Source: Pseudomonadota bacterium
GTDB lineage: Bacteria > Myxococcota_A > UBA796 > GCA-2862545
Length of the DNA: 41,724 nt
Assembly: GCA_005797785.1 (NCBI GenBank)
Contig: SYKL01000055.1
Location: 1 to 41,724 of the forward strand
Reading direction: 5' to 3'
Part shown: positions 4,605 through 40,005 of the stretch, piece by piece
Numbering within the stretch: the first letter of the stretch is position 1
Layout of the letters: each line of letters opens with the position of its first letter
Notes under the pieces: model-generated
What the model saw: the letters and a program-made list of their open reading frames with translations, nothing else
Database searches by the model: none
What the model was told of the DNA's origin: nothing
Translations under genes and position numbers: made by a program

Positions 4605-4630
4605 CCAACACCCCCAGACACCTGGGAGGT

Positions 4631-4647: not shown

Positions 4648-4693
4648 GCGATGGCTACGATAGCTCGCGGATAATTTCCGGTTTTCGAGCCCG

Positions 4694-4746: not shown

Positions 4747-4860
4747 ATTCGGAACCGCGCTCATTATTATCAAGTGTCAATCAACGCCAGAATGTAAACC
4801 AACGTTGACGCTTTGATGGCGCCGCCTCCCCAAACCCGGGGTTGCAACGTTTCCCGCCGC

Positions 4861-5844: not shown

Positions 5845-5965
5845 TGGGATCCTCCAAGATTGGCCCAAGGCGTAACCGGGGGTACTTCGGATCGCGATCG
5901 ACCATGGGCCCCAAATTTCACTCCCCACGGTTCCGCCGACGGAGCAAGTGCACAGGGGAGGAAGC

Positions 5966-6598
5966 ATGTGGGATCTCATCTGGCCTGGCGAATGTAGAGT
6001 GTGCGAGGCGCCGGTAGCCGGCATTCTTTGCCACGAGTGCGGTCCACTCGGGATTTACCGCATAAACCGTCGCATCACCGGAATTGAAACTGCGATCACC
6101 TCCGCCCCCTATTCGGCACCGGTCGGAAACGCAGTGAAACTCGCCAAGTACAGCCGCAATCGGCCGCTCGCTGCGGTTCTCGCGAAGCGTTTTGCCGACC
6201 AGGTGAGTCCCATCCTTCAAAACGCACCCTTCAACGCCATTGTGCCGGTGCCATCCCACTGGCGCAAACGCTGGCACCGGGGATTTGAGATTTCGGCGTT
6301 ACTCGCGATCGAACTCGCTTCGGTCGCCCGCCGCCCCGTCGTGCACGGACTGAAATCCACAGGTGCCTCAAACCAAGCCGGAATCGCCGGCCATCAGCGA
6401 CATACGACAGCTATGTCGCGGTTTCGTTCGCGCTGCATTTGGCGAGGCGGCGCCGTGTTGTTGGTCGATGACGTGTTGACCACCGGCTCCACAGCGGAGG
6501 CGTGTGCACAAGAACTGCTCGGTTCTGGCGTATCTCGGGTGTTTCTAGCCACGTTGTGCGCCGCGAGACCATCCGAGACATCCGTCCAAATTCTGTGA
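5966..6598 (+). CDS. comF: ComF-family phosphoribosyltransferase-like protein
   Basis: This 210-residue protein has the architecture of ComF/GntX. An N-terminal zinc-ribbon-like pair (CRVCEAP ... CHECG) is followed by a PRTase fold. The segment VPVPSHWRKRWHRGFE is the family hallmark, and VLLVDDVLTTGSTAEAC is the PRPP-binding loop. ComF proteins assist DNA uptake in naturally competent bacteria; many non-competent species also carry one with an uncertain role. The ATG at 5966 was chosen over the ORF-track start at 5948 because GGGGAGGA lies 5 to 10 bases upstream. No other competence gene is visible nearby. Confidence 0.87.
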   Translation: MWDLIWPGECRVCEAPVAGILCHECGPLGIYRINRRITGIETAITSAPYSAPVGNAVKLAKYSRNRPLAAVLAKRFADQVSPILQNAPFNAIVPVPSHWRKRWHRGFEISALLAIELASVARRPVVHGLKSTGASNQAGIAGHQRHTTAMSRFRSRCIWRGGAVLLVDDVLTTGSTAEACAQELLGSGVSRVFLATLCAARPSETSVQIL

Positions 6599-15870: not shown

Positions 15871-16662
15871 ATGTCACTGATTTCCTCCACTTGGGCGGTT
15901 TTGCGCGGTGCCTTAGCAGATACCGCCGACTCGCTGGCAAAGAGCGTCTGGGGTCTGACGGCCCTGGTACTGATTTTACCGATCGAGGTCGCCGCCGCGC
16001 TGTTGGTATCGCCGCTCGGCTTCGCCGGGGGGATACTTTTAAGCCTTCTCAACTCCCTTCTGGTCGGATGGTACCTCGCGCTGGTGGGGATCGCCGTGCT
16101 TCAGCGGCGCCGAGTCACTTTCGCCGATCTAAAGGACCAAATGGGCACCCACATCTGGGATGTCATGTCGGTCCTGTTCATCTTTTGGATCATTGAACTC
16201 GCGCTTTCGCAAGCTCCTGGCACCGTTCACGTCATCTATGTGTTGGTTGGCACGCTCGTATTCAACCCCGCACCTGAGCTGATTTATCAAGGACGCACCA
16301 ACTCTGTCGGCCTTTTGCAGGACGCCGCTTCCTTCATGCAGAACAATTGGCCGGAATGGTTGGTGGCGCATGTGGTCGGATACGCCGTCATTGTGCCCTT
16401 TTATTGGTTTCTTTCCGGAGGCATCGACCTTCAAGGCGCCGCCAGCATTCTGAAAATGTTTGGCCCATGGTTCGGGTTCACCTCCGCAGGCACCTGGCTG
16501 GTGATCGGCCTGTCTTCCACCCTTAATCTCGGCATTTTGGCCATGGTGGGGGGTACGGGACTGACGCTCTTTTGCCACGCCTTTCTGCTGTTCCGCGGGC
16601 ACCTGTTTCAGCGATTATCCTCTTCGTCGCGCCGTTCTCGGAGCTGGTCAGCGCGCCACTGA
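15871..16662 (+). CDS. Multi-pass membrane protein of unknown function
   Basis: I do not recognise this 263-residue protein. About six hydrophobic helices are visible, at VWGLTALVLILPIEVAAALLV, FAGGILLSLLNSLLVGWYLAL, VMSVLFIFWIIELAL, VIYVLVGTLVF, VVGYAVIVPFYWFL and a final pair ending LTLFCHAFLLFRGHLFQRL. A short Ser/Arg-rich tail follows. Polar segments between helices carry NPAPELIYQGRTNS, which may be a conserved loop. The ATG at 15871 has only a weak RBS; a GTG at 15862 is an alternative. The much longer upstream reading in the ORF track crosses the intergenic region. Its 3' end overlaps the convergent GH18 gene by 15 bases. Confidence 0.7.
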   Translation: MSLISSTWAVLRGALADTADSLAKSVWGLTALVLILPIEVAAALLVSPLGFAGGILLSLLNSLLVGWYLALVGIAVLQRRRVTFADLKDQMGTHIWDVMSVLFIFWIIELALSQAPGTVHVIYVLVGTLVFNPAPELIYQGRTNSVGLLQDAASFMQNNWPEWLVAHVVGYAVIVPFYWFLSGGIDLQGAASILKMFGPWFGFTSAGTWLVIGLSSTLNLGILAMVGGTGLTLFCHAFLLFRGHLFQRLSSSSRRSRSWSARH

Positions 16663-18240
16663 CCGCCGGCGGCGGTAAGCCAACAAACCGGCGATGCCGG
16701 CCCAGGCCCCGCCCCATGGCGTCGAATTGCACCCGCAACCCTGAACCCCAAGCGCCGGGTCGATCACGATCACGTAGCTCGTCGCGGGGGGCGACCACAC
16801 CACGCCGTCACCCACCTCCAGCTCAAACGCAAGGGTTCCCGTCTCTTTTAGCGGGAACTCGGGCTGCGCACCGGACGGATCCGACAGCTCCACCGCCGGG
16901 CCCGCCACTTGCGTCCATCGAAACTCCAGATCCTGCCCATCCGGGGCGGTGCTGTCCAGCCCCGACAAACGGACGGTATCCCCCACATATGCCAAGAAAG
17001 GAAGGCCGACATTCGCAATGTACTGTGCATAAACTTGGTCGGTGTCGCCGGTTTCCTCAGTGTCGCCCGTATCGCCCGTGTCCCCAGTATCCACCGTAAA
17101 GTTCGTCTCTTCGTCCATCATTGCCCAAAGTTCTGGGTCTTGTTCATCGTAATTTAGCGCCCAAAATCCAACGCCAGCGATCCCCGATTCACGAGTGTAT
17201 ATCACCCTTTCGCGAACACTGTCGGTGTTCTGATACCATCCCTGACGTCCCCCGCCGTAGTAGTACGGAGTCCGGCTCTGTTCATCGAACGAAGCGCCAT
17301 ATTGAGCCGCTTTGTCCTGGGCAGCCACCCAAAATACCGCCGAACCCGTCCCCGTGGCGTCGGCGGGCACATCGTTCGACGCCACCGGCCAAGAATACCC
17401 ATACAAAGGGAGTCCCAGAATCACTCGATCCGGATCGGCGTCGTAGGTCAGGTAGTCTTCGACGGTCCATTCCAACGAATGATCCCCCCAAACCCCGCCT
17501 CCATATAGGGGATCCACTGGACCGGCGGTGCCGCTGCCGGAATAGTGGTAGCCGTACCCCATGATGAAAACATCGGCAAAACGGGTGATTTCAGAATAAT
17601 CCCAAGCGCCATTCCAGTCGACGGCGGGAGTGGCGAACACCACTTCGTCACCAAACTCGTCGTTTAGCTCCTCTGCAAAGTCCACGAGATCCTGTTTGTT
17701 CGCGGACAGCAGTCCCTCAAAATCGATATTGACCCCGTCCGCTCCCGTGGCGTCCACCCATTCGCGCAGCTGATCGATCGCGTGCGAACGAGCGGTTGGG
17801 CTGTCCAAAAAAGCGCCTATGGAACCCGAACTAAAGTTGGTAACGCACAAGTGGGTCTTTACGCCGTAAGGTTCTGCACGCGCCACGACGTCATCGGCGT
17901 TATCCCACGTACTTGTGCCCGTTAAATTCCCGTCTTCATCGATCCCCGCTTGAAAAACCGCGATGTGGCTCAGGTTGTCCCACGGCACGGTGTCCAAATC
18001 ATCGGCCCAATACGCCAAATATCCGTAGACGGTCATGTCGGGACCCGGCGTGGCAGAGGGTTGACCACCCGCTTGCCCACCCGAGGCTTTCTTGCGCGCC
18101 ACCACCTTGGGGTGCAGCTGCATTTGACGCGCGTGCTCGCCGACGAATTCTACGTCTGGCAAGCCCAATTCGCCGGCGGAGGGGGGTGTCTCAGCCCACG
18201 CTGAAGTGGCCACGGCCAACACACCGATCAGCGAACCCAT
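16648..18240 (-). CDS. Secreted GH18 (chitinase-like) protein with MYXO-CTERM-like tail
   Basis: This exported protein of 530 residues has a signal peptide ending near ATSAWA-ETPP. A glycoside hydrolase family 18 TIM barrel spans about residues 70-410: DMTVYGYLAYWADD starts it, DGVNIDFEG (about 168-176) carries the catalytic Glu and preceding Asp, and GVGFWALNYDEQDPE ends it. Family 18 includes chitinases and spore-cortex-type hydrolases; the substrate is not determined. An acidic repeat linker DTGDTGDTGDTEETGDT leads to an Ig/PKD-like domain (LEFRWTQVAGP). The tail QGCGCNST, a hydrophobic stretch and RRRR match the MYXO-CTERM sorting pattern. The ATG at 18240 has GGAGG 5 bases upstream and gives a proper signal peptide, unlike the ORF-track start. 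Confidence 0.85.
   Translation of the reverse strand: MGSLIGVLAVATSAWAETPPSAGELGLPDVEFVGEHARQMQLHPKVVARKKASGGQAGGQPSATPGPDMTVYGYLAYWADDLDTVPWDNLSHIAVFQAGIDEDGNLTGTSTWDNADDVVARAEPYGVKTHLCVTNFSSGSIGAFLDSPTARSHAIDQLREWVDATGADGVNIDFEGLLSANKQDLVDFAEELNDEFGDEVVFATPAVDWNGAWDYSEITRFADVFIMGYGYHYSGSGTAGPVDPLYGGGVWGDHSLEWTVEDYLTYDADPDRVILGLPLYGYSWPVASNDVPADATGTGSAVFWVAAQDKAAQYGASFDEQSRTPYYYGGGRQGWYQNTDSVRERVIYTRESGIAGVGFWALNYDEQDPELWAMMDEETNFTVDTGDTGDTGDTEETGDTDQVYAQYIANVGLPFLAYVGDTVRLSGLDSTAPDGQDLEFRWTQVAGPAVELSDPSGAQPEFPLKETGTLAFELEVGDGVVWSPPATSYVIVIDPALGVQGCGCNSTPWGGAWAGIAGLLAYRRRRSVAR
17035..17095 (-). repeat. GDT-rich linker repeat in the GH18 protein
   Basis: Short imperfect 9-base repeats encode a run of Gly-Asp-Thr units between the catalytic and Ig-like domains. 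Such acidic Thr linkers recur in surface proteins with MYXO-CTERM tails. Confidence 0.7.
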
Positions 18241-18290
18241 TAAGCCTCCGCAAGGAACCCGGCTGAATAGCATCATCGGTGGAGGCGCGT

Positions 18291-18653
18291 GTGACAATCC
18301 TCTGGGTGTTCTTAGGCGGAGGCACCGGCGCAGCACTTCGTTGGCTTTTGTCCCTATGGATCCCCGGCTACCCGGGAACGATACTCATCAATTTGATCGG
18401 AAGTTTTGCACTCGCTTTGCTTTCGCATCCGGCGACGGGCGCTTCCCCGGCTCTGCGCCTCACCTTAGGAGTTGGCATTCTCGGTGGATTTACAACCTAT
18501 TCCACCTTCAACCTGCAGCTGTTGAACGCCCTGCAGCAGCGCGATGCAGTGGGAGCGGGAATCCAGCTGTTCGGAACGGTGGGAGGCTGCCTTTTGTTTG
18601 GTTTGCTCGGTTGGCAGTTTGCCGAATGGTGTTTTGGATCCGCGGGTGGATGA
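18291..18653 (+). CDS. crcB: Fluoride ion channel CrcB/Fluc
   Basis: This small four-helix membrane protein of 120 residues forms a dual-topology dimeric fluoride-selective channel that expels fluoride. FLGGGTGAALRW near the N-terminus, NLIGSFALALL (the pore Asn) and GILGGFTTYSTFNLQ (the phenylalanine/Thr track and central Na site) are diagnostic. The GTG at 18291 has GGAGG 5 bases upstream and matches the usual N-terminus; the GTG at 18279 in the ORF track is less likely. It is divergent from the GH18 gene with only 50 bases between. No fluoride riboswitch is seen in that space. Confidence 0.93.
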   Translation: MTILWVFLGGGTGAALRWLLSLWIPGYPGTILINLIGSFALALLSHPATGASPALRLTLGVGILGGFTTYSTFNLQLLNALQQRDAVGAGIQLFGTVGGCLLFGLLGWQFAEWCFGSAGG

Positions 18654-18756: not shown

Positions 18757-19473
18757 ATGGGCTTTTTCGATCGGATCGCCAATATCTGGAAGGGTTTTTT
18801 GAGCCTTTGGGTTTCCGATATGGAAAACCGAAACCCAGAAGCGGTGTATGAAGCGGCGATCAATGAAAGGGTGAAAAAACACCTCGAATTGAAGAAGGCC
18901 GTTTCGGGCATCGTGTACCTCCGAAACAAGATCTCCAGCGAGCTCGAAGAAAAGGAAAAAGAGCTCCGAGACGTCATGAATCAGCTGCCCATCGCCGTGG
19001 AAGACGGTGAAGACGAAGTGGCGCTCATTCTGATTCAGAAAAAAGACGAGCTCAGCAAAGCCATTGAGTCGCTTTCCGGCGAGCTTACGAAGATCTCCGC
19101 CCAAGCAGAAGAAGCGAAGTCGGGCCTTGTCCAATTCCAGGGCGAAATCGAAAAGCTCAAGCGAGAAAAAGACGAGATGCTGGCCAAGAAGAGCAATGCT
19201 CAAGCCCGCATTCAAATCCAAGACACGCTCAATGGGTTGTCGACCGACGCCGACATCAAAGCCCTCGACAACGTTCGCGAGCACATCGACAAATTGCAGG
19301 CGGAAGCCGACATCGGCGCAGAAATCAAGGGCAATTCCTTGGACGACAAGCTTGCAAAGATCCGCGAAAAAGCCGCAAACAGCACCGCACGCAATCAGCT
19401 GGAAGAGATGAAGCGCCAAGCTGCCTCTAAGAAAGCCGCTTCTGAAGGTGCTTCCGTCAAGAAGACCATCTGA
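18757..19473 (+). CDS. pspA: PspA/IM30 (ESCRT-III-like) family protein
   Basis: This 238-residue coiled-coil protein maintains or remodels the inner membrane under stress in its family. It begins with an amphipathic helix, MGFFDRIANIWKGFLSLWVS, then the PspA-type DMENRNPEAVYEAAI. Long heptad-rich coiled coils (about 45-160) and a helical C-terminus follow (TARNQLEEMKRQAA). It ends in a Lys/Ala-rich tail. The ATG at 18757 has AGAGG 4 to 5 bases upstream and fits the conserved N-terminus; the upstream ORF-track residues are leader sequence. PspA genes are often sigma-54-dependent, but I find no -24/-12 element here. The next gene starts one base after the stop. Confidence 0.85.
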   Translation: MGFFDRIANIWKGFLSLWVSDMENRNPEAVYEAAINERVKKHLELKKAVSGIVYLRNKISSELEEKEKELRDVMNQLPIAVEDGEDEVALILIQKKDELSKAIESLSGELTKISAQAEEAKSGLVQFQGEIEKLKREKDEMLAKKSNAQARIQIQDTLNGLSTDADIKALDNVREHIDKLQAEADIGAEIKGNSLDDKLAKIREKAANSTARNQLEEMKRQAASKKAASEGASVKKTI

Positions 19474-19474: not shown

Positions 19475-19813
19475 ATGGAGCTCCCTTCGCGGGATCCATC
19501 GGCAGAAGATGCCTTCGTGGCAGGGCTGACCGATGCAAGCGAAGAAGTCGTCCAAGAAGCCGTGGAGTTGGCGCTTGAGGCCCAGCGTCCAAAGCTGGCC
19601 GCGCGACTGGTGTTGCTCCTCGATCGCCCAGAGTTGACAGGCGCCGCTGAGAAGGCGATGCGCGCCGCGCGATGGCTACTGCTTGAAAACGCCGTTCCAG
19701 ATGACGCTCCCGCTCCTTTGGTGTATTGGCGCAGGTGGCAGCGCCGCCCGCTGAGTCGTTACCGTCGCACAGTCATGGCGTCTGACCAGGGTTTTTCACC
19801 GCGCCGGCGATAG
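19475..19813 (+). CDS. Small helical protein of unknown function
   Basis: This is a 112-residue ORF starting with an ATG one base past the PspA-family stop, in the same operon. Residues 1-75 look alpha-helical and may form HEAT-like pairs (EEVVQEAVELALEAQRPKLAARLVLLL). The C-terminal third is strongly basic (YWRRWQRRPLSRYRR). There is no signal peptide and no membrane helix. No family is recognised. Immediate coupling to pspA suggests a partner of that protein; this is inference. Confidence 0.6.
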   Translation: MELPSRDPSAEDAFVAGLTDASEEVVQEAVELALEAQRPKLAARLVLLLDRPELTGAAEKAMRAARWLLLENAVPDDAPAPLVYWRRWQRRPLSRYRRTVMASDQGFSPRRR

Positions 19814-19892: not shown

Positions 19893-22800
19893 ATGATCGG
19901 CCATTGGTGGGCATGGGCCAATGCGTCGGCACGGCGAAAGCGTCATCTTCAGTGGCTGGTGCTGCTGATGGTGGTCTCTGTCGCGGTGCAGGCCGTACTT
20001 TGGACGTGGTATATTGAGGACGCCGCGATCAGTTTCGCTTACGCCCGCAATCTCGCCACCGGCGAGGGGTTGGTGCCGTACCCCGCGGGCGAAAGGGTCG
20101 AAGGATATAGCAATCCCACCTGGGTATTTCTGCTCGCCGTCGGTGAATTGCTCGGGATCGACAGTTTCTCGGGCGCGAAGATTCTCGGGGCACTCTTCGG
20201 GGCGTTAACCCTCCCGTTTGCCTACCTCCTGGCCAGCGAGCTTCGCCCCGACGAAGACGACGATGTCCCGGTCTACGCCGCGGTTTTCCTTGCCGGATGC
20301 TCGCAATTCACGATTTGGAACACCTCCGGCCTCGAAAACAGCCTGTTCAATTTCCTGCTGGCGGTCGGACTTTGGCGCACCATCGCCGAGCTAAAACCTG
20401 GACGTTGGCCAATCGGACCCTTTGCCTACTTCCTGTTAGCGATCACGCGTCCCGAAGGGATCATGTACGGGGCCGCCGCCGGATTTTGGGCGATGGCCTT
20501 CAGCCTTGGACTCGGGCAGGGCCTGTGGCCAACCCTCCGGTGGTTGGGTACCTTCTTCGCTCCGTGGACCATTTATCAAGTTTGGCACTACAATTATTTC
20601 GCTTGGCCCTTGCCCAACACCTATTACGCCAAGACCGAAGACTCGGACTTCGCTCCGTACGGTTGGGACAAGGCAGGATGGAAGTACATTCGGAACTGGG
20701 CCAAGGACGTTGGTCAAGGTCCTTTACTACCTCTGTGGATGGTGGGGATCACCGGTTTTTCGAACGCCCGCCAACGGTACTTGGCTTTATTTGCCTCCGC
20801 GGTCGTTCTCGCCATCGCCGCCCCGGGTTCGGATGCCTTCGCCGCAGTGGTCCAATTCGTCAGCTTTGACAGCCTGACGGCGGCCATGGTTCTGCCCTAT
20901 TTTCTTGGCGCCATGGTCGCGCTCGGACTCGTGAGTCTGTTCGGATTCCTGACCCATCAGCGTGGCGACGTACCTTTTGCGGCAGCTGGCGTTGGCGGTG
21001 TGCTCGCATTGGTTTTGGTGGCTGCGATGTACGGCTTCGGCTGGTCGTTCTACCTCTCGTTGATCGCCGATTCCAGCACCGCCCAAACGTTGCTGGATCT
21101 CGCCGAGCTCCGCAATAAAATTGCGATATTCGCGGCCGCTGCGCTCGTGGTGACTGGCGGCATCGTGTTCGGTAAAGAGCGAGACACGCTACGTTTCGCC
21201 TTGGGGGGCGCCGTCGCCACCGTCGCGATCGTAGGTGCCGTGTATTACCTCCAGTGGTCCAGCATCGGCTTTGATCCGTTTGATTTGCAGTCCGTTGCTC
21301 CAGCAAAATTCCGTGTGGCAGCGATCGCACTCTTCGTTCTCGCTCTCCCGCGTTTGGTCCCGGCCCGGCCAGGTTGGCGTGTGATCGTCCTTTGTTGCGA
21401 CACCATCGCGCTCGCGCTGTTCTTTGCGCTGTGGTCCGGCGGAGATTGGATGAAGGGATTCCGCTGGATGGCGGCCCTTACTGTTCCGGCCTCGGTGCTG
21501 TTTGCTTCAACAGTTGGAGAACTGGGCTCCCTCTACCAGTCCATTCTCGGCAGAAACTCGGCACTGAGCAGGATCGCTTGGTACGTTGGCCTGCCCGCAG
21601 CAGCCGCTGTTGCGAGCGCGGTGTTTTATTACGGCTCGGTAAACATCATTCAACCCGCCCTTCCCACCGAAAGCGCCGGCGCCCTTATCTCTGCCCTGTG
21701 GGTGGTCGTCGGGCTGGCATCGACGGGCGCGATGGTGTTTGCGTTGTGGCGGGCGCCAAGCCTATTACGGGGCCAACGACCCGATCGTTGGGGTTGGCCT
21801 GCCACTTTTGCCGGTGCCGTTTGCGCGATCCTGTTCCTCGCCCCCCACATCAACCACCTCAACGTCATCGCCAACAAGCCAGAAACCAGCCCAAAATCCG
21901 TCAAACGGCGCGTCGACTACATCAATGCCGCTGCAGCACGTCTTCACGTCGACACCCCGATCGTCAACATCGATGTCGACCAAGGAGCTCACCTTTGGTG
22001 GTCCGGGCATCAAATGCTCGACATCGCCGGACTGGTCGACATGTCGATGGCACACCAGAAGTACAAACCGGAATTCATCCGCGAGTACATCTTCGCCGAG
22101 CGCAAGCCGCAATTTGCCCACGTTCACGGTGGGTGGGCGAACAAATCGAAGATCAACAAGCAGCCCGAGTGGAAGCGCGACTATTTTGAAATTCCCGGCT
22201 ACCCCACAGGCAAATCCCTTCACGTTGGAAACCACGTTCGACGTGACCTTTTCATAAAAACCGAATGGCCGGACGTTCCCGAACGTCACATTCAGTTTGA
22301 GGGCGGCACCGAGCTCGTCGGGTACTACACCGCAGCATCCGAAGTCGGAACTTCGGACTCGCTTTACCTCGAGGTCGCCCTTCGGATCCCGGAAGCCACC
22401 AAGAAGGGCGAAGGATTTCGGATGATGGCGTTCCTCGCCAACGATGCAGGCGACATCCAAATCTGGGATTTGCCCCCCGGCTATGACTGGTACACCACCG
22501 ATCTGTGGAAGAAGGACGAGATCGTCTGGGGCCGGTTCTCGCTGCCCGTCAACCTCAAAGAAGGAAGCTACGACTTAGGATTTGTCGTTTTCGACCTCGA
22601 CGGAAAAGTCCTGTCCGCCTTGTCCTCCGGCGGGCCCGGTCCCACCTTATCCCCAGCGGCCCCACGCTTTTTACCCGGCGAGGTGTTGTTCCCGGGCGCG
22701 ATGCGCGTGCTCTCCGCCAAAGACGCCGAAACCGCCGCCGACGCCGCACACGCCAGTGCCATCACAAAGGCCAAAGCTGGCGATTGCGCTGGCGCAGAGT

Positions 22801-23315
22801 CCAGCTGGGATGAGGCCCGACGTCGGATGACCAAGCAAGACAAATGGCTCCAAGCGCACAAAGGGACCGCCATGAACGCGCTCGCCGCTTGTCTCGCTGC
22901 CGAGGCCTCCAAATCAAGCGATCAAGCGGAACAGGTCGCACTGATTTCAAAAGCGCGCCGGTTTAGCCACTTGGAACCCACCCTCCTCGCGGTTGCCGCA
23001 CCCCTCGCGGAAGGAGCGTACCTCCGCGGCAAGGAAGCGTACGATCAGCAGCGCTGGGAAGATGCATACCGAGAATTGGCCGCTGCCGTTGCTTTTGAGC
23101 CCTGGCGCGCCTGGGCAAAGCGCTACATGGAGGAGGCGCGCGCGCATCGGCTTGGGATCGATCCCGACTCTTTGGCGAAGAAAAAAGCAGACGCCGACGC
23201 CAAAAAGAAGCGCCCACCCGTTCAGCGAACCTTGCCGCGCGCGAAGGCGCCGGGCGAAGAGGAGGCTCCTGAGCCGGAAGAAGCCGTTCCCGGACCTGAG
23301 GCGGACGAGGAATGA
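19893..23315 (+). CDS. GT-C fold membrane glycosyltransferase candidate (AftB-like) with large extracytoplasmic C-terminus, copy 1
   Basis: This 1140-residue protein has about a dozen or more membrane helices in residues 15-650 and a long soluble region. The first external loop WYIEDAAISFAYARNLATGEG...VEGYSNPTW, then NTSGLENSL and ITRPEG, follow the pattern of mycobacterial AftB-like GT-C enzymes, whose acidic pair after helix 1 is catalytic. Such enzymes transfer sugars from polyprenyl phosphate donors on the outer face of the membrane. The soluble part holds an 'AHLWWSGHQMLDIAGLVD' module, a beta domain (about 800-920), TPR-like helices (about 940-1085) and a Lys/Pro/Glu-rich tail. The ATG at 19893 is preferred over the TTG at 19872. 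The 3' end overlaps copy 2 as ATGA. The donor and acceptor are unknown. Confidence 0.72.
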   Translation: MIGHWWAWANASARRKRHLQWLVLLMVVSVAVQAVLWTWYIEDAAISFAYARNLATGEGLVPYPAGERVEGYSNPTWVFLLAVGELLGIDSFSGAKILGALFGALTLPFAYLLASELRPDEDDDVPVYAAVFLAGCSQFTIWNTSGLENSLFNFLLAVGLWRTIAELKPGRWPIGPFAYFLLAITRPEGIMYGAAAGFWAMAFSLGLGQGLWPTLRWLGTFFAPWTIYQVWHYNYFAWPLPNTYYAKTEDSDFAPYGWDKAGWKYIRNWAKDVGQGPLLPLWMVGITGFSNARQRYLALFASAVVLAIAAPGSDAFAAVVQFVSFDSLTAAMVLPYFLGAMVALGLVSLFGFLTHQRGDVPFAAAGVGGVLALVLVAAMYGFGWSFYLSLIADSSTAQTLLDLAELRNKIAIFAAAALVVTGGIVFGKERDTLRFALGGAVATVAIVGAVYYLQWSSIGFDPFDLQSVAPAKFRVAAIALFVLALPRLVPARPGWRVIVLCCDTIALALFFALWSGGDWMKGFRWMAALTVPASVLFASTVGELGSLYQSILGRNSALSRIAWYVGLPAAAAVASAVFYYGSVNIIQPALPTESAGALISALWVVVGLASTGAMVFALWRAPSLLRGQRPDRWGWPATFAGAVCAILFLAPHINHLNVIANKPETSPKSVKRRVDYINAAAARLHVDTPIVNIDVDQGAHLWWSGHQMLDIAGLVDMSMAHQKYKPEFIREYIFAERKPQFAHVHGGWANKSKINKQPEWKRDYFEIPGYPTGKSLHVGNHVRRDLFIKTEWPDVPERHIQFEGGTELVGYYTAASEVGTSDSLYLEVALRIPEATKKGEGFRMMAFLANDAGDIQIWDLPPGYDWYTTDLWKKDEIVWGRFSLPVNLKEGSYDLGFVVFDLDGKVLSALSSGGPGPTLSPAAPRFLPGEVLFPGAMRVLSAKDAETAADAAHASAITKAKAGDCAGAESSWDEARRRMTKQDKWLQAHKGTAMNALAACLAAEASKSSDQAEQVALISKARRFSHLEPTLLAVAAPLAEGAYLRGKEAYDQQRWEDAYRELAAAVAFEPWRAWAKRYMEEARAHRLGIDPDSLAKKKADADAKKKRPPVQRTLPRAKAPGEEEAPEPEEAVPGPEADEE

Positions 23316-25867
23316 CCTCCGCTTGGAAGGCGCGCGCACAGCGCGCCTTTGACGGACTCGACGATCGCGGACGGGCTAACGTCACCGGACTCGCGCTCGG
23401 AAGTGCACTTTACTTAGTGCATTTTGCCATATTCTCGTGGTGGTACATCGAAGACGCTGCGATCAGTTTTGCGTACGCGCGAAACATCGCCGATGGCGAA
23501 GGTTTTGTGGCGATGCCTGGCGCCGAATGGGTCGAAGGCTTCTCCAATCCCACCTGGACGCTCGCACTCGCTGGACTCGACTTCTTCGGTATTACGCCCT
23601 GGATCGCCGCAAAAATGCTCGGGGCCCTGTGCGGCTTAGCGACACTTCCGCTGGCCGTACGCTGGTTTCACGACATTCGTCCAGACGCGACTCCCAAAGA
23701 AACGGCCCTCGTTCCGTTGATCTTGGCGACCTCGCTGCAGTTCGTTCTTTGGAACGGTTCCGGCCTTGAAAATAGCTTCTTTGTTCTTTCGTTAACCGCC
23801 AGCGTGGTGGGACTGTGGGATCCTCGCCGGGTTTGGGTCTCCGGCCTCGCTGCGTCAGTCTTGGCGATCACCCGCCCGGAAGCGCCTTTGTACGTCGCCA
23901 TCATCGGGTTCACCGGGATGTGGTACCACCGACGAACGCTGATTCGCTGGGCGCTGCCATGGTTCATTGCACTCCTGGTGCCCTTTCTCGCCTGGCATGC
24001 CTGGCGATATCATGCTTTTGCTTGGCCTTTTCCAAACACCTACTATGCAAAACTTGCCGACGCTGAGAAGTTTGCACCGTTGGACTGGCAGAAAAAAGGT
24101 TGGAAGTACATTCGAAACTACGCTTTCTATTCCGGACATGGATTTCTGCTTCCGCTGTATGTCGCGGGGGCGGTTGGATTTCGGCGACCGACCCTTATTT
24201 ATGGAGCTATCGCCCTCGGCGGTTTGGCGACCGCGGCGCTTCTAGGCGTGGCACTGCCCGCAAATGGGCAAGCCAGCGCGATTTTGGCGACGCTTGCGCT
24301 CCTCGGAATCACTCTCGCGGCGCTCTACGAAAACCAGGGACCGCGATCACTGGCTTGGCTCCTCATGTTGACCGCAGGTTTCTTTGCCCTGTACTCCGGC
24401 GGAGACTGGATGAAGGGATACCGCTGGTTCTCGTTTGCTGCGGTTCCAGGCGCCGTGCTTCTGGCCGTGGGCATTGCCGAAATCACCCCCGTGTTTCAAC
24501 GCTGGCCGCGCATTCCACCGTTGATCGCGGGTGCACCCGTGGTTTTGGGTGTGATGAGCACCATCGGGTTCGTGAGCGCCCCCGAAACGATGCCGTACGA
24601 CGTGTACCGACGTGTGTTGTACATGGAGGGAGTAAAAGAACGTTTACACCTCGACCATGCCGCACTTCTCGACGTTGACATGGGCGCACACCTGTGGTGG
24701 TCGGACTTCGAAATTGTCGATCTGGCCGGCCTTGTCGACGTACCCATCGGTCACCACAAATGGCAGCACACTTTTATGCGTGAATATGCCTACCAAGAGC
24801 GAAATACCGAGTTCGCCCACGTTCACGGAAGCGCCCCGCGCAATTCGCTCAACAAATTGCCAGAATGGAAGCGGTACATCGAGATTTCGGCGTATCCGAT
24901 TTCACCAACGACTCTGCACGTCGGAAACCACATTCGAAAGGACCTGATCGTCCATCCCTGGACGGGTCCCACCGACAAGACGGCCCGCTTCCAAGGGAAT
25001 GTCGACCTGTTGGGATTGAACGTTCCAGCTGGCACGGCACCTGGCGAAGAATTGTATTTGGAGCTTGCGCTGCAGCGTCCCAACAAAGGGAAGGATTTTA
25101 GGGTTTGGGTGTTCCTCTCGAACGGAAAGGGCATGTCCGTTCACGAGCTCCCCCCGGCATACGATTGGGTTCTCCCGTCCAAATGGAAGGCGGACGAAAC
25201 CTGGGTTGGGAAGTACAGCCTTCCGATCCCTGCCGATTTTATCCCTGGTTCCTACGACCTTGGCATCGTCGTCGTCGGAACCGGCGCCCGAAGTGAGGTT
25301 TGGGCGGCCGTGGAGAGCTCTGGGACATCGGAGTATCCAGCGTTGATCCCAGGCGAAGTACGGTGGCCCGGCGCCGTCGAAGTTCAATCCCCTTCGGCGG
25401 CCGAACAAACAGCCGATCGCGAATTGGACGCCGCGCTTCAGAGTGCGTCCTCCGGCGACTGCCCGAGTGCCGAAGCTCGATGGGCAATTTCCCGCCGATG
25501 GCTGGGGCGCCACCACGCTTGGCAAACCTCGGCCCGCCAGCGCATCGACGACGCCCTTGCCGCTTGCTGGGCGTTGGATGCGGAGAACTCCGAAGATGTG
25601 GAGTCCATACGCAAGGCTCGCCGATACAACCACCAAAATCCCGAAACGTTGCGTGTCAGCGAACTGCTCGCGAACCGATGGGAAGCCGCAGGAAACGCCG
25701 CAACCACCGAAGATGCCCGATACACCGCATGGTCAAAAGCGTTGATCGCTGACCCTTCCCGCGCCTGGGTCCGCAAGCAGGCAGAACAAAGCCGCGATAT
25801 TCGGCTGGGGCTCTCGGCACAGAATCCAACCGAGGCCATCCCCGCTGGGGGAGGAGGTCCGGATTGA
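23312..25867 (+). CDS. GT-C fold membrane glycosyltransferase candidate (AftB-like), copy 2
   Basis: This is an 851-residue paralogue of the preceding gene. It shares WYIEDAAISFAYARN, VEGFSNPTW, NGSGLENSFF, AITRPE, the segment FAWPFPNTYYAK, GWKYIRN, YSGGDWMKGYRW, the 'GAHLWWSDFEIVDLAGLVD' module and the beta domain (VHELPPAYDWVLPSKWK). It lacks several middle helices and the charged C-terminal tail of copy 1. The ATG overlaps the stop of copy 1 and its stop overlaps the TTG of the cytochrome gene, so all three should be translated together. Tandem duplication followed by divergence is the simplest history. A heteromeric or sequential action of the two copies on one glycan is inference. Confidence 0.72.
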   Translation: MTSAWKARAQRAFDGLDDRGRANVTGLALGSALYLVHFAIFSWWYIEDAAISFAYARNIADGEGFVAMPGAEWVEGFSNPTWTLALAGLDFFGITPWIAAKMLGALCGLATLPLAVRWFHDIRPDATPKETALVPLILATSLQFVLWNGSGLENSFFVLSLTASVVGLWDPRRVWVSGLAASVLAITRPEAPLYVAIIGFTGMWYHRRTLIRWALPWFIALLVPFLAWHAWRYHAFAWPFPNTYYAKLADAEKFAPLDWQKKGWKYIRNYAFYSGHGFLLPLYVAGAVGFRRPTLIYGAIALGGLATAALLGVALPANGQASAILATLALLGITLAALYENQGPRSLAWLLMLTAGFFALYSGGDWMKGYRWFSFAAVPGAVLLAVGIAEITPVFQRWPRIPPLIAGAPVVLGVMSTIGFVSAPETMPYDVYRRVLYMEGVKERLHLDHAALLDVDMGAHLWWSDFEIVDLAGLVDVPIGHHKWQHTFMREYAYQERNTEFAHVHGSAPRNSLNKLPEWKRYIEISAYPISPTTLHVGNHIRKDLIVHPWTGPTDKTARFQGNVDLLGLNVPAGTAPGEELYLELALQRPNKGKDFRVWVFLSNGKGMSVHELPPAYDWVLPSKWKADETWVGKYSLPIPADFIPGSYDLGIVVVGTGARSEVWAAVESSGTSEYPALIPGEVRWPGAVEVQSPSAAEQTADRELDAALQSASSGDCPSAEARWAISRRWLGRHHAWQTSARQRIDDALAACWALDAENSEDVESIRKARRYNHQNPETLRVSELLANRWEAAGNAATTEDARYTAWSKALIADPSRAWVRKQAEQSRDIRLGLSAQNPTEAIPAGGGGPD

Positions 25868-27252
25868 AACGCGCCCGTTCGCTCGCAATCGTTGCGGCTT
25901 TTTTCGCCGTTTCCGCTCTGGCCACTCCGTCCGATCCCCGAGGTTGGTCGCCGGGAACGCCAGCGGCGAACAGCGCACGCGTGTTGGAGCCGCTCGCTCA
26001 GGAAGTAACACTTGAGTTTCCAAGCCGCTTTCAGAAGTTGATCACCGGGCCCACGGTGATCGTCTACTTCTCGCCGACCTGCCCGCATTGCCAAGCGGTG
26101 GCGCCCGAAATCAACGCATTGTCCAAACGTCTGGGCGAGAGCGCCACCGTCATCGGCGTGTCCACCGGCGGACAGTCGGCGGTCGCCATGAAAGAGTTCG
26201 TCTCGGAATACCGAGTTCCTTACAAGGTGATCCACGACACCGATGGAGAGATCGCTGCGACTCTCGGCGTCGACTCCACTCCTTCGGTCATGCTGGTGGT
26301 TCCCGACGGCGAAAAAGTCAAGGTAGCTGACTATTGGTACCCCTATCGCCACGGTTTTGACACGCTTGTAGAAATGCGCGCCCTGGAAAACCCCTGGGAG
26401 GCCTTTCGCCCGGGCGAGTTTCACGGGGATGGAGCCTGCGCCACCTGTCATCTTAGCGAAGCTTCTTCCGCACTTCTCACCCACCACTCCATCGCTTGGG
26501 CCACCCTGGTCGAGAAAGAAGAAGATCAAAACCCCGCTTGCACCAATTGCCATGTCACCGGCGCGGGTCAGCCGACCGGTTGGGATGGATCGGAGGGGTC
26601 GCACCTGGTGAATGTCGGCTGCGAAGCTTGCCATGGACCCGGCGGCCCGCACGATGGCGCCCGCCTCGACCCCCGCACGACCTGCAGCGGGTGTCACGAT
26701 GAAAAGCACAGTATCGCGTTCTCAGTGGAAAAGGGGCTCCCCAAAATCGACCACTACCGCGCGGATGCCATGGACGACAACGCCTTTTTTGAGGAGCGCC
26801 GCAAGCTCGCCAACGGAGAAGTGCCAAGGGATTTGCTCGCCTTTTCCGAGGGAACCAATGTCGGATCCGCCGCCTGCGTAGGTTGCCATTCCGAAGAGCA
26901 CGGCGCCTGGGAAGCTTCTCCCCACGCCAAAGCCATGGCGCGGCTCGACGCCACCCAAAGCCAAGATCCCACCTGCGTTCGTTGCCACGCCACCGCGGAG
27001 CGATCAGGTCCACCCCCCGCCACGGTTGCCGAATTTCATACCTCGGAAAGCGTAGGTTGCGAGTCCTGCCACGGACCCGGCGAAGCGCACGTGAAGGCCG
27101 GCGGCGGCAAAGGCAACATCGAAGGACTCGGCGAAGATTGCCCCGTTTGCGTACTAGAAGCGGTGTGCACCTCCTGCCACACGCCGCAGTGGGACCCGAA
27201 TTGGGAGCTTGAACCCATGCTTGAAAAGATCAAGCACGGAAAGAAACCCTAG
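25864..27252 (+). CDS. Thioredoxin-like domain fused to an octaheme cytochrome c
   Basis: This exported protein of 462 residues has an N-terminal signal peptide (SLAIVAAFFAVSALA). A thioredoxin-fold domain (about 40-160) carries an active-site motif CPHC (residues about 73-76, in YFSPTCPHCQA) and the cis-Pro loop STPSVML. From about residue 190 eight CxxCH heme motifs appear: CATCH, CTNCH, CEACH, CSGCH, CVGCH, CVRCH, CESCH and CTSCH. The spacing and CEACHGPG/CESCHGPG pairs resemble cytochrome c554-type multiheme proteins. A ninth site is degenerate, CPVCV. The start is TTG at 25864, preceded by GGAGGTCC and overlapping the GT-C copy 2 stop. A periplasmic thiol-heme redox role is likely; its link to glycan transfer is unexplained. 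Confidence 0.85.
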   Translation: MKRARSLAIVAAFFAVSALATPSDPRGWSPGTPAANSARVLEPLAQEVTLEFPSRFQKLITGPTVIVYFSPTCPHCQAVAPEINALSKRLGESATVIGVSTGGQSAVAMKEFVSEYRVPYKVIHDTDGEIAATLGVDSTPSVMLVVPDGEKVKVADYWYPYRHGFDTLVEMRALENPWEAFRPGEFHGDGACATCHLSEASSALLTHHSIAWATLVEKEEDQNPACTNCHVTGAGQPTGWDGSEGSHLVNVGCEACHGPGGPHDGARLDPRTTCSGCHDEKHSIAFSVEKGLPKIDHYRADAMDDNAFFEERRKLANGEVPRDLLAFSEGTNVGSAACVGCHSEEHGAWEASPHAKAMARLDATQSQDPTCVRCHATAERSGPPPATVAEFHTSESVGCESCHGPGEAHVKAGGGKGNIEGLGEDCPVCVLEAVCTSCHTPQWDPNWELEPMLEKIKHGKKP

Positions 27253-28306: not shown

Positions 28307-29731
28307 CTACGAAAATACTCCGCCGCGCACCGCCGTTCCCAACGCTTTCAAATCCGGATGAAGCACGCGATCCTCGGTCCAACGGCGGACCAACGACCGA
28401 ACCCTGGCGTGCGTCAGCATCGAATCTCTCGACGCTTGCTTACCTTCGTCCATATGAAATTCGAGACCTTGAGACGCGCACATCAGCTCGATCGCGAGCA
28501 CATCGGCGAGGGTCTCAGTGCAATCCCAGGCTGTGCGTCCCGCGATTGGCCCCATCGAAGCGTGGTCTTCGCGGTGCTGTACCGACGGAATCGAATCCAC
28601 CGACGCCGGGTGGGACAGACCCTTCATCTCGCTCACCAGGGATGCCGTGGTGTACTGTGCCAGCATCAACCCGCTGTTTAGGCCGGTACTCGGTACCAGA
28701 AAGGAAGGAAGCCCTGAAAGCTGACCATACGTCAAACGAAAGGTTCGTCGCTCGGAAATCGACGCCACCTGCGTCAACGCGATCTTCAGCTGATCCATCG
28801 CCATCGCAGCAGCAGCGCTATGGAAATTTCCCGCTTCGACCGTCCGATCGCCGAACATCAATGGGTTATCGACCGCCGCGTTAAGCTCACGTTCCACCAC
28901 GGTTTCCACGAATTCGAGCACTTCCCAAGCAGCGCCCAACACCGCCGGCGCACAACGGATGGAAAATGGATCGGGCGTTCGTCCCTCATAGCAAAGTTCA
29001 GACCCAGACAATCTAAGACGCAATCGCTCCGCGACAGCGATCGGACCTGGATGGCGGCGTTCCTGCATCGCTTCCGCATCCAGGCAGCGTAGATCGGCGC
29101 GCACCACCTCAAACGTGAGCGCACAAGCGGCTTCTGCCGCCTCCAACAGTCTTCGAGAACGAGCAACGACCAATCCGGCCCATGCTGCGGTGAGCGAGTC
29201 ACCATTCACAAGGGCTAAGGCTTCTTTTTCCGTGACTTCGACCGCCCGCACTTCGGAGGCAACCGGTCCGCTGTCGCCCCAAACCCTGCCGCCCAAGCCA
29301 CAAAGGACCTGTGCCACGTGGGCGAGCGTCGGCGATCCCGCCGTGCCAACCGACCCTTGCGACGGGATCCAGGGGAGAGGCCCATCCAACAGCTGAAGGA
29401 GAGCATCCGCAATCTCCGGGCGAACTCCACTAAAGCCGCACGCCAACACGTTGACCCGAGCGGCAATCAGCGCACGCACCATCGGCTGCGCCAAAGGGGG
29501 CCCTACCCCGGCGCAATGCCCAAGGATGAATCGACGCACACGCTCCGCGGGCTCGGCAGGAGGCTCACCTCCAACCAACCAACTCCACTTTTGCGCTAAC
29601 CAATCCCCTGTTCGAACGCCGGCGGCCATTCGAGCGCGCGCCGTGGCATCCAACACCGGGCGTGCACCTTCGGCGATCGCCGTCAATTGTCGAGGCGTCA
29701 ACGACCTCCCATCCAGGCGGATGTCAGACAT
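28307..29731 (-). CDS. HAL/PAL-family lyase paralogue lacking the MIO serine (probable pseudoenzyme)
   Basis: This 474-residue protein clearly belongs to the histidine/phenylalanine ammonia-lyase family: GHCAGVGPPL, FSIRCAPAVLGA, ELNAAVDNPLM, GNFHSAAAAMAMDQL and SVDSIPSVQHREDHASM are all present. Yet the tripeptide that cyclises to the MIO prosthetic group, normally Ala-Ser-Gly, is Thr-Ala-Gly here (GSVGTAGSPTLAH). The essential N-terminal YGxNTGxG tyrosine loop is also missing. It therefore cannot make MIO by the known route. The ATG lies 8 bases inside the 3' end of the intact lyase gene, so both are co-translated. Because the family is tetrameric with active sites built from three chains, it might assemble with the intact lyase. 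It shows no frameshift. Confidence 0.82.
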   Translation of the reverse strand: MSDIRLDGRSLTPRQLTAIAEGARPVLDATARARMAAGVRTGDWLAQKWSWLVGGEPPAEPAERVRRFILGHCAGVGPPLAQPMVRALIAARVNVLACGFSGVRPEIADALLQLLDGPLPWIPSQGSVGTAGSPTLAHVAQVLCGLGGRVWGDSGPVASEVRAVEVTEKEALALVNGDSLTAAWAGLVVARSRRLLEAAEAACALTFEVVRADLRCLDAEAMQERRHPGPIAVAERLRLRLSGSELCYEGRTPDPFSIRCAPAVLGAAWEVLEFVETVVERELNAAVDNPLMFGDRTVEAGNFHSAAAAMAMDQLKIALTQVASISERRTFRLTYGQLSGLPSFLVPSTGLNSGLMLAQYTTASLVSEMKGLSHPASVDSIPSVQHREDHASMGPIAGRTAWDCTETLADVLAIELMCASQGLEFHMDEGKQASRDSMLTHARVRSLVRRWTEDRVLHPDLKALGTAVRGGVFS

Positions 29732-31334
29732 CCATCACCCCCGCCAATGCGCCAACCGCGGATTGCACCGCTTCTATCAGTAGTCCATCGCGGATGGCCT
29801 CCGCCAAACCTTCCATGTCCTCCGACGGAGTGAGCGCGCCACGCCCCCCTAGAATGCGTTCGACGGCTTCCAGGGCCGCGGCCGTGCCCTCGCCGAGCCG
29901 CACATCGACGTCCTGTCGTTGGCGCCACCAGAGGCCCCCAGCGGCACAGAACAGCTCAATCGCTACCACGCGGGTCGCATTGGCCACGACTTCGCGCGCG
30001 CGTCGGGCCGCGGTGGTCGCCATCGCCACGTGGTCCTCTTGGTCTTCGCACGTCGGAATGGAGTCAACCGATGCCGGCCAAGCAAGGGCTTTATTTTCGC
30101 TTACCAACGCCGCGGCTGTCGCCTGCGGAATCATCGCCCCCATGCCCGCCGCGTCTTTCTCCACCAACAACGCAGGTAATCGCGCAGAAAGGTTGCCAGT
30201 GGTCAAGCGAAACAATCGACGCTCGGACAGATTTGCCAACTCCGCCACCGCCAATTTGAGATGGTCGGAGGCCATACCCACGGGCTCACCATGGAACAAT
30301 CCGCCAGAAAACGCCTTATTGGCGTCCTCGACGTCCAACAGAATCAGCGGATTGTCCGTCGCCGCATTGATCTCGATGCGCGCCTGATTTCCGGCAAACC
30401 GGATCCCATCCCGAACTGCACCTAAAATCTGTGGTGTACAACGCAGGGAATAGGCGTCCTGCACCTTTCCCGGCAAAGAATCCACCAAGTTTGAGCCCTG
30501 AATCAACCGCCGCAGATTGGCCGCGCATGCGATCGCTCCTGGATACGGTCGAAGCTCCTGAATCGCAGGATGCAACGCACGGCTCACCCCCCGCAGCGCC
30601 TCCCAAGTCATGCCGGCAGCAATTTCTGCCGCAAGAACCAACCGTTCCGCGTCGTACACCGCCAGTGCCAGCATCGCCGTCGACGCCTGGGCGCCATTCG
30701 TGATCGCCAAGCCCTCCTTCGGGCCCGGGATCAACCTCGGAATTCCGGCACGCGCCATCGCCTCGGCGCCGGTCAGGCGCTCGCCCCCAAACCACGCATG
30801 CCCCGAAAACTCCGGTTCTTCGCCCTCCGGACCCCGAAACATCACTAAGCCGAGGTGGGACAATGGAGCCAAATCGCCCGAAGAACCACACGAACCCTGA
30901 GAAGGAACTTCGGGGGTGACGCCTTTTTCCAGCATCCGGCACAGGGTGTCCACCAGAGCCGGCCGGCAACCCGAAGCCCCCTTTGCAAGTGCATTCGCAC
31001 GGAGCAGCATCATGGCCCGCACCACTTCCGCTGGAAACGCCGGCCCCACCCCGGCCGCGTGGCTGCGAATCAAATTCAGCGACAAACGCGAGATGTCCTT
31101 GGCATCGATCTTGACCCGCGCCAACGAGCCATAGCCGGTGTTCACCCCATAGACGGGCAGCGATTCCCCTTGTTCGTCCCGCAGCATGCCTTCAGCAGCG
31201 GAACGAACCCATGCCTCGCTCGCGTTCATCCGCTCGCGAGCGCGATCATCCAAACGCACAACGGCCGATGCCCGAGCGACGCTCGCCACCTGCGAAAGAT
31301 CCAAGGACTGGCCATCGAGCCGAAGTTCGGTCAT
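29724..31334 (-). CDS. hutH: Histidine/aromatic amino acid ammonia-lyase
   Basis: This 536-residue MIO-dependent lyase eliminates ammonia from histidine, or possibly an aromatic amino acid. The catalytic Tyr loop is intact (PVYGVNTGYGSL), the MIO site is Ser-Ser-Gly in GSCGSSGDLAPLSH, and QDAYSLRCTPQILGA, EINAATDNPLI and SVDSIPTCEDQEDHVAM match the HutH pattern. The His in RSHAAGVG is seen in histidine and tyrosine lyases rather than phenylalanine lyases. No hutU, hutI or hutG lies in the window, so a histidine-degradation role is not proven by context. The ATG at 31334 has GGAG close upstream. It heads a three-gene operon with the MIO-less paralogue and the hydrolase. Confidence 0.85.
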   Translation of the reverse strand: MTELRLDGQSLDLSQVASVARASAVVRLDDRARERMNASEAWVRSAAEGMLRDEQGESLPVYGVNTGYGSLARVKIDAKDISRLSLNLIRSHAAGVGPAFPAEVVRAMMLLRANALAKGASGCRPALVDTLCRMLEKGVTPEVPSQGSCGSSGDLAPLSHLGLVMFRGPEGEEPEFSGHAWFGGERLTGAEAMARAGIPRLIPGPKEGLAITNGAQASTAMLALAVYDAERLVLAAEIAAGMTWEALRGVSRALHPAIQELRPYPGAIACAANLRRLIQGSNLVDSLPGKVQDAYSLRCTPQILGAVRDGIRFAGNQARIEINAATDNPLILLDVEDANKAFSGGLFHGEPVGMASDHLKLAVAELANLSERRLFRLTTGNLSARLPALLVEKDAAGMGAMIPQATAAALVSENKALAWPASVDSIPTCEDQEDHVAMATTAARRAREVVANATRVVAIELFCAAGGLWWRQRQDVDVRLGEGTAAALEAVERILGGRGALTPSEDMEGLAEAIRDGLLIEAVQSAVGALAGVMDV

Positions 31335-38590: not shown

Positions 38591-38679
38591 TTCCGGTTCT
38601 CCCCATGAATTATTGTACGTCCACCAATCGTATACGGTTGCGCATCCGTAGGCCTGCGGATGAGGAAGTTGGAGCGACA

Positions 38680-40005
38680 ATGGGTCTGTGGGACACGCTG
38701 AAAACGCACGCTGGTGCGCAGTTTTTGGACGACATTCAGTGGTTGGACGACACCAACAACACCATTGTTTACCGATTCCCGGTGTTCAATCAAGCGATCA
38801 CTGACAAGAGCAAGTTGATCGTGCGCGAAGGCCAGGCGGTGGTATTCATCTCCGAAGGCCAACTTTCGGACGTGTTTGGTCCTGGCACCTACACGCTGGA
38901 CACGCAAAATGCGCCAATTTCGGCATTCTTCAAAAGCATCGCCTACGGACTAAACTACCCCTACAAAGGCGACATCTACTTCATCTCCACCCGCCAATTC
39001 ACCGACAACAAGTGGGGCACCAGCAACCCGATCATGATGCGGGACGCGGAATTCGGACCCGTGCGCATTCGCGCGTTTGGTACTTTCACCTACCGCATCA
39101 CCGATCCCGCAAGTTTCATTCGGCAGATCGTTGGCACGGACGGTCTGTTCACCACGGATGAAATCAACGGCCAGCTGAAACGCAAGCTCGTTAGCACTCT
39201 TGCGGACTCCATCGGTCAAGCCAAGATCCCCGTTCTCGATCTCGCCTCCAACTACATGAGCCTTGGAGATCAGCTCAGAGACCGATTGAACCCTCTCTTT
39301 AAGGAGTCCTACGGCGTCACCCTCACCGACTTCACCATCGAGAACATCAGCCTTCCCGAAGAGGTCGAGAAAGCGCCCGACCAACGCACCAAGATGGGCG
39401 TGCTCGGAAATCTCGACGCTTACGCAAAACTCAATGCCGCCGAAGCGATTCAAACCGCCGCCGCAAACCCTGGTTTGGGAGGCACAGGGGTAGGAATGGG
39501 CGTCGGGATGGGACTCGGCCAGATGGTCGGGCAGACGCTCGCCGGTGGTCAGGGTGGAGGCCAATTTAATCCTCACGCGGGCATGCAGGGACCGCCCTCA
39601 CCAGCGCCACCGCCGCTTCCCGGGGCCGCCAAGTACCACTATTCGGGCCCCTCCGGACAAGCCGAGCTTTCCCCGGCAGAAATCGCGCAACGCATCGGTC
39701 AGGCGCGCGACGCTGACCACTTGGTCTGGCAGGCGGGCTGGGCCGCATGGAAACCGTGGAAGGAAGTACCCGAATTGTCGGCGCTTCTCCCGCCGCCCCC
39801 AGCACCAGTTGCGACGAAATTCCACTACGCCGGACCGGGCGGCGACGGCGAAAAAACGGCAACGGAAATTGCTTCGTTCGCAAAGAGCTTGCCGGGCGAC
39901 CATTTCGTTTGGAAGGCCGGTTGGGATGCGTGGAAGCCTGCGAAGGAGGTGCCGGAAATCGTCGCGCTGATCGGGCCGGTGCCGCCCCCGCTTCCACCAC
40001 GTTAG
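38680..40005 (+). CDS. SPFH-domain protein with two C-terminal GYF-like modules
   Basis: This 441-residue protein belongs to the SPFH/Band-7 branch of B. subtilis YdjI ('virion core protein-like'). The domain begins IVYRFPVFNQAITDKSKLIV and includes VREGQAVVFISEGQLSDVFGPGTYTLDT. It ends in the helical stretch RTKMGVLGNLDAYAKLNAAEAIQTAA. A Gly/Met-rich hinge and Pro linker lead to two similar GYF_2-type repeats (KYHYSGPSG...WQAGWAAWKPWKEVPEL and KFHYAGPGG...WKAGWDAWKPAKEVPEI), which bind Pro-rich partners in related proteins. In Bacillus YdjI works with a PspA homologue; the PspA here is 19 kb away. The ATG at 38680 has GTTGGAG upstream. A membrane-associated scaffold is likely. Confidence 0.85.
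   Translation: MGLWDTLKTHAGAQFLDDIQWLDDTNNTIVYRFPVFNQAITDKSKLIVREGQAVVFISEGQLSDVFGPGTYTLDTQNAPISAFFKSIAYGLNYPYKGDIYFISTRQFTDNKWGTSNPIMMRDAEFGPVRIRAFGTFTYRITDPASFIRQIVGTDGLFTTDEINGQLKRKLVSTLADSIGQAKIPVLDLASNYMSLGDQLRDRLNPLFKESYGVTLTDFTIENISLPEEVEKAPDQRTKMGVLGNLDAYAKLNAAEAIQTAAANPGLGGTGVGMGVGMGLGQMVGQTLAGGQGGGQFNPHAGMQGPPSPAPPPLPGAAKYHYSGPSGQAELSPAEIAQRIGQARDADHLVWQAGWAAWKPWKEVPELSALLPPPPAPVATKFHYAGPGGDGEKTATEIASFAKSLPGDHFVWKAGWDAWKPAKEVPEIVALIGPVPPPLPPR

Follow-up and report, generated by a model that had tools for sequence, protein, structure and literature searches.

A PspA-linked operon, probably of five genes, for predicted GT-C membrane glycosyltransferases and a thioredoxin-octaheme protein in a member of the Myxococcota_A

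Contig SYKL01000055.1 from the draft genome GCA_005797785.1 (4.87 Mb, 81% complete), which was analyzed over its whole length of 41,724 nucleotides and is termed the window in the following, carries what is probably a five-gene envelope operon. The genes for PspA and a small, probably helical protein are followed by two genes for membrane glycosyltransferases (GT1 and GT2) and a third one (gene 3) for an exported protein that combines a thioredoxin domain with eight heme-binding sites. A first-pass annotation of the same DNA had described GT1, GT2 and gene 3 as a trio with overlaps of four bases, and the coordinates (Table 1) bear this out; the trio is real but the operon probably begins earlier, with pspA and the gene for the 112-amino-acid protein. 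The reading we favor, and hold with moderate confidence, is that of PspA-linked periplasmic glycosyltransferases which are co-transcribed in the family of the source organism with a periplasmic thiol:cytochrome oxidoreductase. The evidence consists of gene order, domains, motifs, conservation and distribution, joined by a predicted GT-C fold. A chance origin of the gene order is ruled out, as it is found again in 10 genomes that represent many genera.

The first three genes all lie on the same strand and GT1 is separated from the preceding gene by 79 bases. The ATG start codon of pspA has AGAGGA upstream, and GGAGGAGG is found directly upstream of the TTG at which gene 3 begins. The Pfam scan did not assign the 112-amino-acid protein to any family. 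Its relatives adjoin pspA/GT in five genomes (G002, G003, G004, G013 and G019).

Conservation of the arrangement was followed in 58 genomes of the order, in which f1 is the family of the source organism and f2 to f6 are other families; the named relatives are Myxococcota or deltaproteobacterial metagenome-assembled genomes. GT relatives are encoded in all 58 genomes. Gene 3 is carried by 17 f1 genomes, two of which (G010 and G012) were left out as their contigs end at the critical place. The neighborhood analysis suggested by the first-pass annotation shows the genes conserved together in relatives: in 10 of the 15 testable f1 genomes gene 3 resides directly beside the GT gene(s) on the same strand, with small gaps or 4-bp overlaps. 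PspA, encoded directly upstream of GT in 21 of 27 scoreable loci from families f1, f2 and f3, is the older and better-conserved neighbor of the GT gene when compared with gene 3. Outside f1, GT is a single gene at the loci read; the tandem pair, which arose within f1, forms two clades in that family. GT and gene 3 are not an obligate system because they adjoin each other only within f1 and either one can be present where its partner is absent. Family f2 features GT and lacks gene 3, and in f8 and f9, which belong to the same class, gene 3 is present and no GT match was obtained at 1e-20. Most economically, pspA and the GT genes are viewed as an old envelope module that was joined in f1 by a broadly distributed periplasmic thiol-cytochrome enzyme.

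Possible, though clearly less probable than the reading we favor, is a merely transcriptional connection. Gene 3, serving unrelated periplasmic electron transfer or thiol repair, would have been captured downstream of pspA-GT in the ancestor of f1 and would have no tie to a glycan. This would agree with the confinement of the linkage to f1, with five f1 genomes in which both parts are present and unlinked, and with the families f3 to f6, where both are found on one contig in none of 15 genomes, some of the contigs being short. On the other hand, the adjacent order persists over many f1 genera with proteins that are only ~33-57% identical, and 4-bp overlaps are kept in several of them.

GT1 and GT2 are paralogues, with 43% identity in the membrane part at the N-terminus and 35% in the remainder. 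Neither of them is recognized by any Pfam or NCBIfam model; of the profile searches proposed earlier, the one for the cytochrome gave a clear match (Cytochrome_C554 on gene 3). Pfam matches to MerE and MalQ_N on GT1/GT2 are below the cut-off and were dismissed as chance, and matches to the PMT_2 family fall elsewhere in the source genome. An AlphaFold2 model of GT2 (pLDDT 87.3, pTM 0.85), for which 21 relatives were aligned, was compared with solved structures by Foldseek. The best match is AftB (9dlh, E=4.0e-6, prob 1.00); next come the oligosaccharyltransferase AglB, ALG9 and ArnT. The best matches are all GT-C enzymes, pointing at a GT-C membrane fold in the predicted structure. The notion of a paralogous GT-C pair with large external domains stands. 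As to an AftB-like subfamily, AftB (9dlf) was matched weakly by one GT profile (E=0.0016), and a narrower profile gave no match.

GT1 is composed of a GT-C-type membrane part with an extra membrane insert, an external sandwich, a TPR domain and a charged tail. It belongs to a paralogue clade that is confined to f1 and has retained the motif residues. Some 50 homologues were compared. The acidic pair E47-D48 of GT2 is constant in all of those covering the site, with DD in one distant short homologue, and R188 (in TRPE) as well as D365 and R371 (in GGDWMxxxR) are constant wherever covered. The external beta-sandwich weakly resembles the carbohydrate-binding C-terminal domain of Wzt (Foldseek E 0.03-0.06, prob 1.00). 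A role as glycosyltransferases is supported because residues of catalytic type are kept in the homologues, as in AftB. In the scheme that we infer for donor and acceptor, the sugar most likely comes from a polyprenyl-phosphate carrier and is taken over by GT1 and GT2 on the outer side of the inner membrane. Of their residues, the Glu-Asp pair of the first external loop would act on the sugar and the conserved arginines in TRPE and DWMxxxR would bind the phosphate; an envelope acceptor may be held by the external beta-sandwich and TPR domains. PspA probably ties GT expression or the membrane site of the GTs to envelope stress.

Two cysteines of GT2, C717 and C752, reside on adjacent helices of the TPR-like domain, where they probably form a disulfide, and they are present in every GT homologue that covers them. 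It is conceivable, albeit unlikely, that gene 3 is dedicated to the GTs and makes or isomerizes their disulfide or acts as their redox switch, in which case CPHC of its thioredoxin domain would form or break C717-C752 and redox state would control glycosylation. The translational overlap of GT2 with gene 3, their adjacency in the 10 f1 genomes and the invariance of a cysteine pair in an external domain would all fit such a role. We disfavor it because the pair is equally invariant in the cytochrome-free f2 genomes and because VKOR, encoded in 58 of 58 genomes, is able to supply general disulfide formation; moreover, f8 and f9 contain gene 3 without GT. The redox-controlled envelope glycan system put forward by the first-pass annotation is likewise not supported: its parts are unlinked outside f1, PspA is the better-conserved neighbor and the cysteine pair is invariant where the cytochrome is missing. 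Although the components exist and are in part conserved as a group, a direct coupling of sugar transfer to redox chemistry is without support.

Gene 3 encodes exactly eight CxxCH motifs and a TlpA/ResA-type thioredoxin domain with CPHC. The Pfam matches (AhpC-TSA, 1.1e-12; Cytochrome_C554, 3e-21, 76.6 bits versus a cut-off of 20.8) and a signal peptide (about residues 1-20, judged by eye) confirm the previous description as an exported thioredoxin-fold protein with eight heme sites. Neither gene 3 nor its f1 family features a lipobox. The thioredoxin domain has the fold, the CxxC and the cis-Pro, the latter within T139-P140, which is invariant in an alignment of 17 homologues. In a wider set of 43 homologues, C73 and C76 are conserved in 42 and H75 in 41, the family motif being CPHC or CGHC. 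By its fold the domain corresponds to ResA, to the CPHC variant of ResA (3c71) and to DsbE/DsbF-like proteins from Mycobacterium tuberculosis. The heme sites are essentially invariant in the wider set, and the two halves of the octaheme part align with each other (31% identity, E=2e-16). UshA-like tetraheme proteins of many phyla share the tetraheme module.

In front of heme 8 a second, non-heme CxxC is found, of which C429 is present in 43 and C426 in 40 of the 43 homologues. The combined CxxC-heme 8 pattern occurs in all octaheme relatives (L048-L058) and holds in those from Thermodesulfobacteriota, other deltaproteobacteria and Planctomycetota; a CxxC before the last heme site is not present in the UshA-type tetraheme cousins. 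Gene 3 apparently defines a hitherto undescribed thioredoxin-octaheme family that is found in several phyla: a literature search, which left most subscription papers outside its reach, did not yield any paper describing a thioredoxin domain fused to an octaheme or multiheme cytochrome. A comparison of gene 3 with plasmids gave no match. Unlike the soluble form encoded by gene 3, the distant thioredoxin-octaheme relatives L051, L054, L055 and L056 carry lipobox-like signals.

For gene 3 the most likely role is that of a thiol:cytochrome oxidoreductase, soluble in the periplasm. Protein thiols or small thiols would exchange disulfides with its CPHC domain, and the CxxC at heme 8 would be the route by which electrons enter or leave the octaheme wire and the cytochrome pool of the periplasm. 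With respect to electron direction, the sequence suggests a flow from thiols to hemes, which is favored because CPHC/CGHC is a motif of the DsbA/PDI type; the opposite direction is possible. In f1, gene 3 and the GTs would be expressed jointly within a common envelope programme, without gene 3 being an obligatory partner. Several other roles were considered and rejected. VKOR occurs in 58 of 58 genomes and DsbB in four, arguing against a function as the sole or main oxidative-folding enzyme of the DsbA type. A thiol peroxidase role for the family is not indicated, as the active-site cysteine is missing from the extra N-terminal redoxin/PrxQ-like domain of L051-L057 in those sequences that were read. 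A selenoprotein was discarded too: the sole in-frame TGA in the full-length homologue from G019 sits right where the match finishes and probably represents a real stop.

The ligands of the hemes lead to a further alternative. Seven conserved extra histidines, four in module 1 and three in module 2, stand against eight hemes. Because module 2 has the invariant C429 where the histidine of module 1 is missing, one heme may have a cysteine as ligand or an open position next to a thiol. Hemes with His/Cys ligation are known from sulfur enzymes such as TsdA. Gene 3 might accordingly be regarded as an oxidoreductase for sulfur or disulfide compounds, with the Cys-ligated or open heme in module 2 and the thioredoxin domain presenting or accepting a sulfur substrate. 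We consider this improbable: the ligands are assigned from the sequence only and genes for sulfur metabolism were not seen adjoining gene 3. Very improbable, finally, is a part for gene 3 in an extracellular electron-transfer chain and its glycosylation by GT1/GT2, as had been suggested for the cytochrome in the first-pass annotation, since an exported multiheme protein adjoining outer-face transferases is set against a signal peptide without lipobox throughout the f1 family, the absence of a porin family among the Pfam-scanned genes of the window (not every gene was scanned) and the occurrence of gene 3 without GT.

The interpretation as PspA-linked glycosyltransferases co-transcribed with a thiol:cytochrome oxidoreductase also has to face observations that weigh against it. 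PspA is not encoded upstream of GT in six of the 27 scoreable loci. Support for the AftB subfamily is thin at the sequence level (marginal similarity), and GT1 and GT2 are for this reason named GT-C-type and not AftB. CPHC and the second CxxC are not strictly coupled: in L046, G022 and G058 CPHC is present and the second CxxC is incomplete, while the Planctomycetota octaheme relative L058 (5956-7536) has kept the second CxxC and possesses an N-terminal domain without a thioredoxin CxxC. The octaheme part of the gene 3 model, which was built without hemes, is of moderate quality (pLDDT ~60-89).

Table 1. Features of the pspA-GT-gene 3 locus and of neighboring genes in the window
Feature	Position	Strand	Remarks
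pspA (PspA/IM30, ESCRT-III-type envelope-stress protein)	18757-19473	+	Likely operon head; Pfam PspA_IM30 1.5e-19
Small 112-amino-acid protein, probably helical	19475-19813	+	Starts 1 base past pspA stop
GT1 (gene 1), 1140 amino acids	19893-23315	+	Alternative in-frame TTG at 19872 possible
E42-D43 of GT1, putative catalytic acidic pair	20016-20021	+	First external loop; aligned to E47-D48 of GT2
GT2 (gene 2), 851 amino acids	23312-25867	+	ATGA overlap with GT1 (4 bp)
E47-D48 of GT2	23450-23455	+	Tip of first external helix, after the first transmembrane helix; conservation and modeled secondary structure
External beta-sandwich of GT2, ~residues 539-691	24926-25384	+	Strands in model
TPR-like helical domain of GT2	25391-25804	+	Helices in model; TPR profile matches
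C717 of GT2	25460-25462	+	Invariant; TPR-like domain
C752 of GT2	25565-25567	+	Invariant; TPR-like domain, helix adjacent to that of C717
Gene 3, thioredoxin-octaheme protein, 462 amino acids	25864-27252	+	TTG start; TTGA overlap with GT2 (4 bp)
CPHC active site, residues 73-76	26080-26091	+	Thioredoxin domain
Eight CxxCH heme sites, residues 192-439	26437-27180	+	Tandem pair of c554-like tetraheme modules
Second non-heme CxxC (CPVC, residues 426-429)	27139-27150	+	Before heme 8; pattern C-x2-C-x5-C-x2-C-H
GH18-type glycosidase	16648-18336	-	Weak MYXO-CTERM match; divergent from pspA operon
CrcB/Fluc-type fluoride channel	18279-18653	+	Just upstream of pspA
Pair of adjacent genes for aromatic amino acid lyases (HAL/PAL-type)	28307-31334	-	
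SPFH/Band 7 protein with GYF domain	38605-40002	+	11 kb from operon

Some neighboring genes recur in relatives. The glycosidase gene keeps its place in many genomes of the order, and the fluoride channel gene is also found near pspA in G003, G004 and G019. The lyase pair recurs as well: in G013, G014, G017 and G019 it comes after the cytochrome gene and points in the opposite direction. In G014 a copper type II monooxygenase-like gene (L035:6690-7973) is situated between cytochrome and lyase pair, a position occupied in the window by an alpha/beta hydrolase. The class of SPFH/Band 7 proteins is known to provide PspA partners elsewhere. In L118 from candidate division CSSED10-310, a gene for a GT-C homologue (3270-4895, E=7.6e-48) is divergent from a tetraheme open reading frame (5868-6437) that carries CxxCx5CxxCH, possibly a second, independent GT-cytochrome association.

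Of most interest are the pspA-GT-C operon and the family of thioredoxin-octaheme proteins. In the envelope of bacteria, disulfide chemistry is known to depend on quinones (DsbB, VKOR) or on cytoplasmic thioredoxin (DsbD). With a DsbA-type dithiol beside an octaheme wire in several phyla, direct electron exchange between thiols and cytochromes becomes testable with one purified protein. Rather doubtful is the more far-reaching proposal that gene 3 represents a new class of dithiol-heme enzymes, in which CPHC, a CxxC/Cys-assisted heme 8 and the octaheme wire would couple periplasmic disulfide chemistry directly to the pool of cytochromes, in f1 in the service of the GTs and under PspA control. 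If true, hemes would do what DsbB and VKOR do with quinone.

Among known systems, the mycobacterial terminal arabinofuranosyltransferase AftB (GT-C/GT-CA fold, PDB 9dlf/9dlh) resembles GT2 in the predicted membrane fold and the external cap domain, and shares with GT1 and GT2 an acidic pair on the first external loop and conserved arginines. In AftB, D62 of a DD motif corresponds to the acidic residue, and the phosphate is bound by two arginines (PMC12041299); the arginines of GT2 may match them one to one. The GTs differ by ED instead of DD and by a larger external part with Wzt-like sandwich and TPR domain, and arabinose as donor is without support for them. Gene 3 shares its fold with ResA, including the CPHC variant 3c71, TlpA and M. 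tuberculosis DsbE-DsbF. In contrast to these, it has CPHC/CGHC, the DsbA/PDI motif, by nature, and eight attached hemes as the likely redox partner. Each half of its octaheme part is the tetraheme module of cytochrome c554 and of the UshA-like (seleno)protein NF041198, to which the heme module alone matches (138.5 bits, below the curated cut-off of 275). Compared with the UshA-like protein, the module is duplicated, thioredoxin replaces the metallophosphoesterase and an extra CxxC is present at heme 8. With PspA at its head, the operon finally resembles the PSP system. PspA-thioredoxin dyads have been noted in Actinobacteria and Cyanobacteria in a survey of PspA partners, the main text of which does not contain the word glycosyltransferase (PMC11237479). 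The pspA-GT-C operon adds a new kind of partner to this envelope-stress system: here, PspA is combined with GT-C proteins and with a thioredoxin that is exported and fused to hemes.

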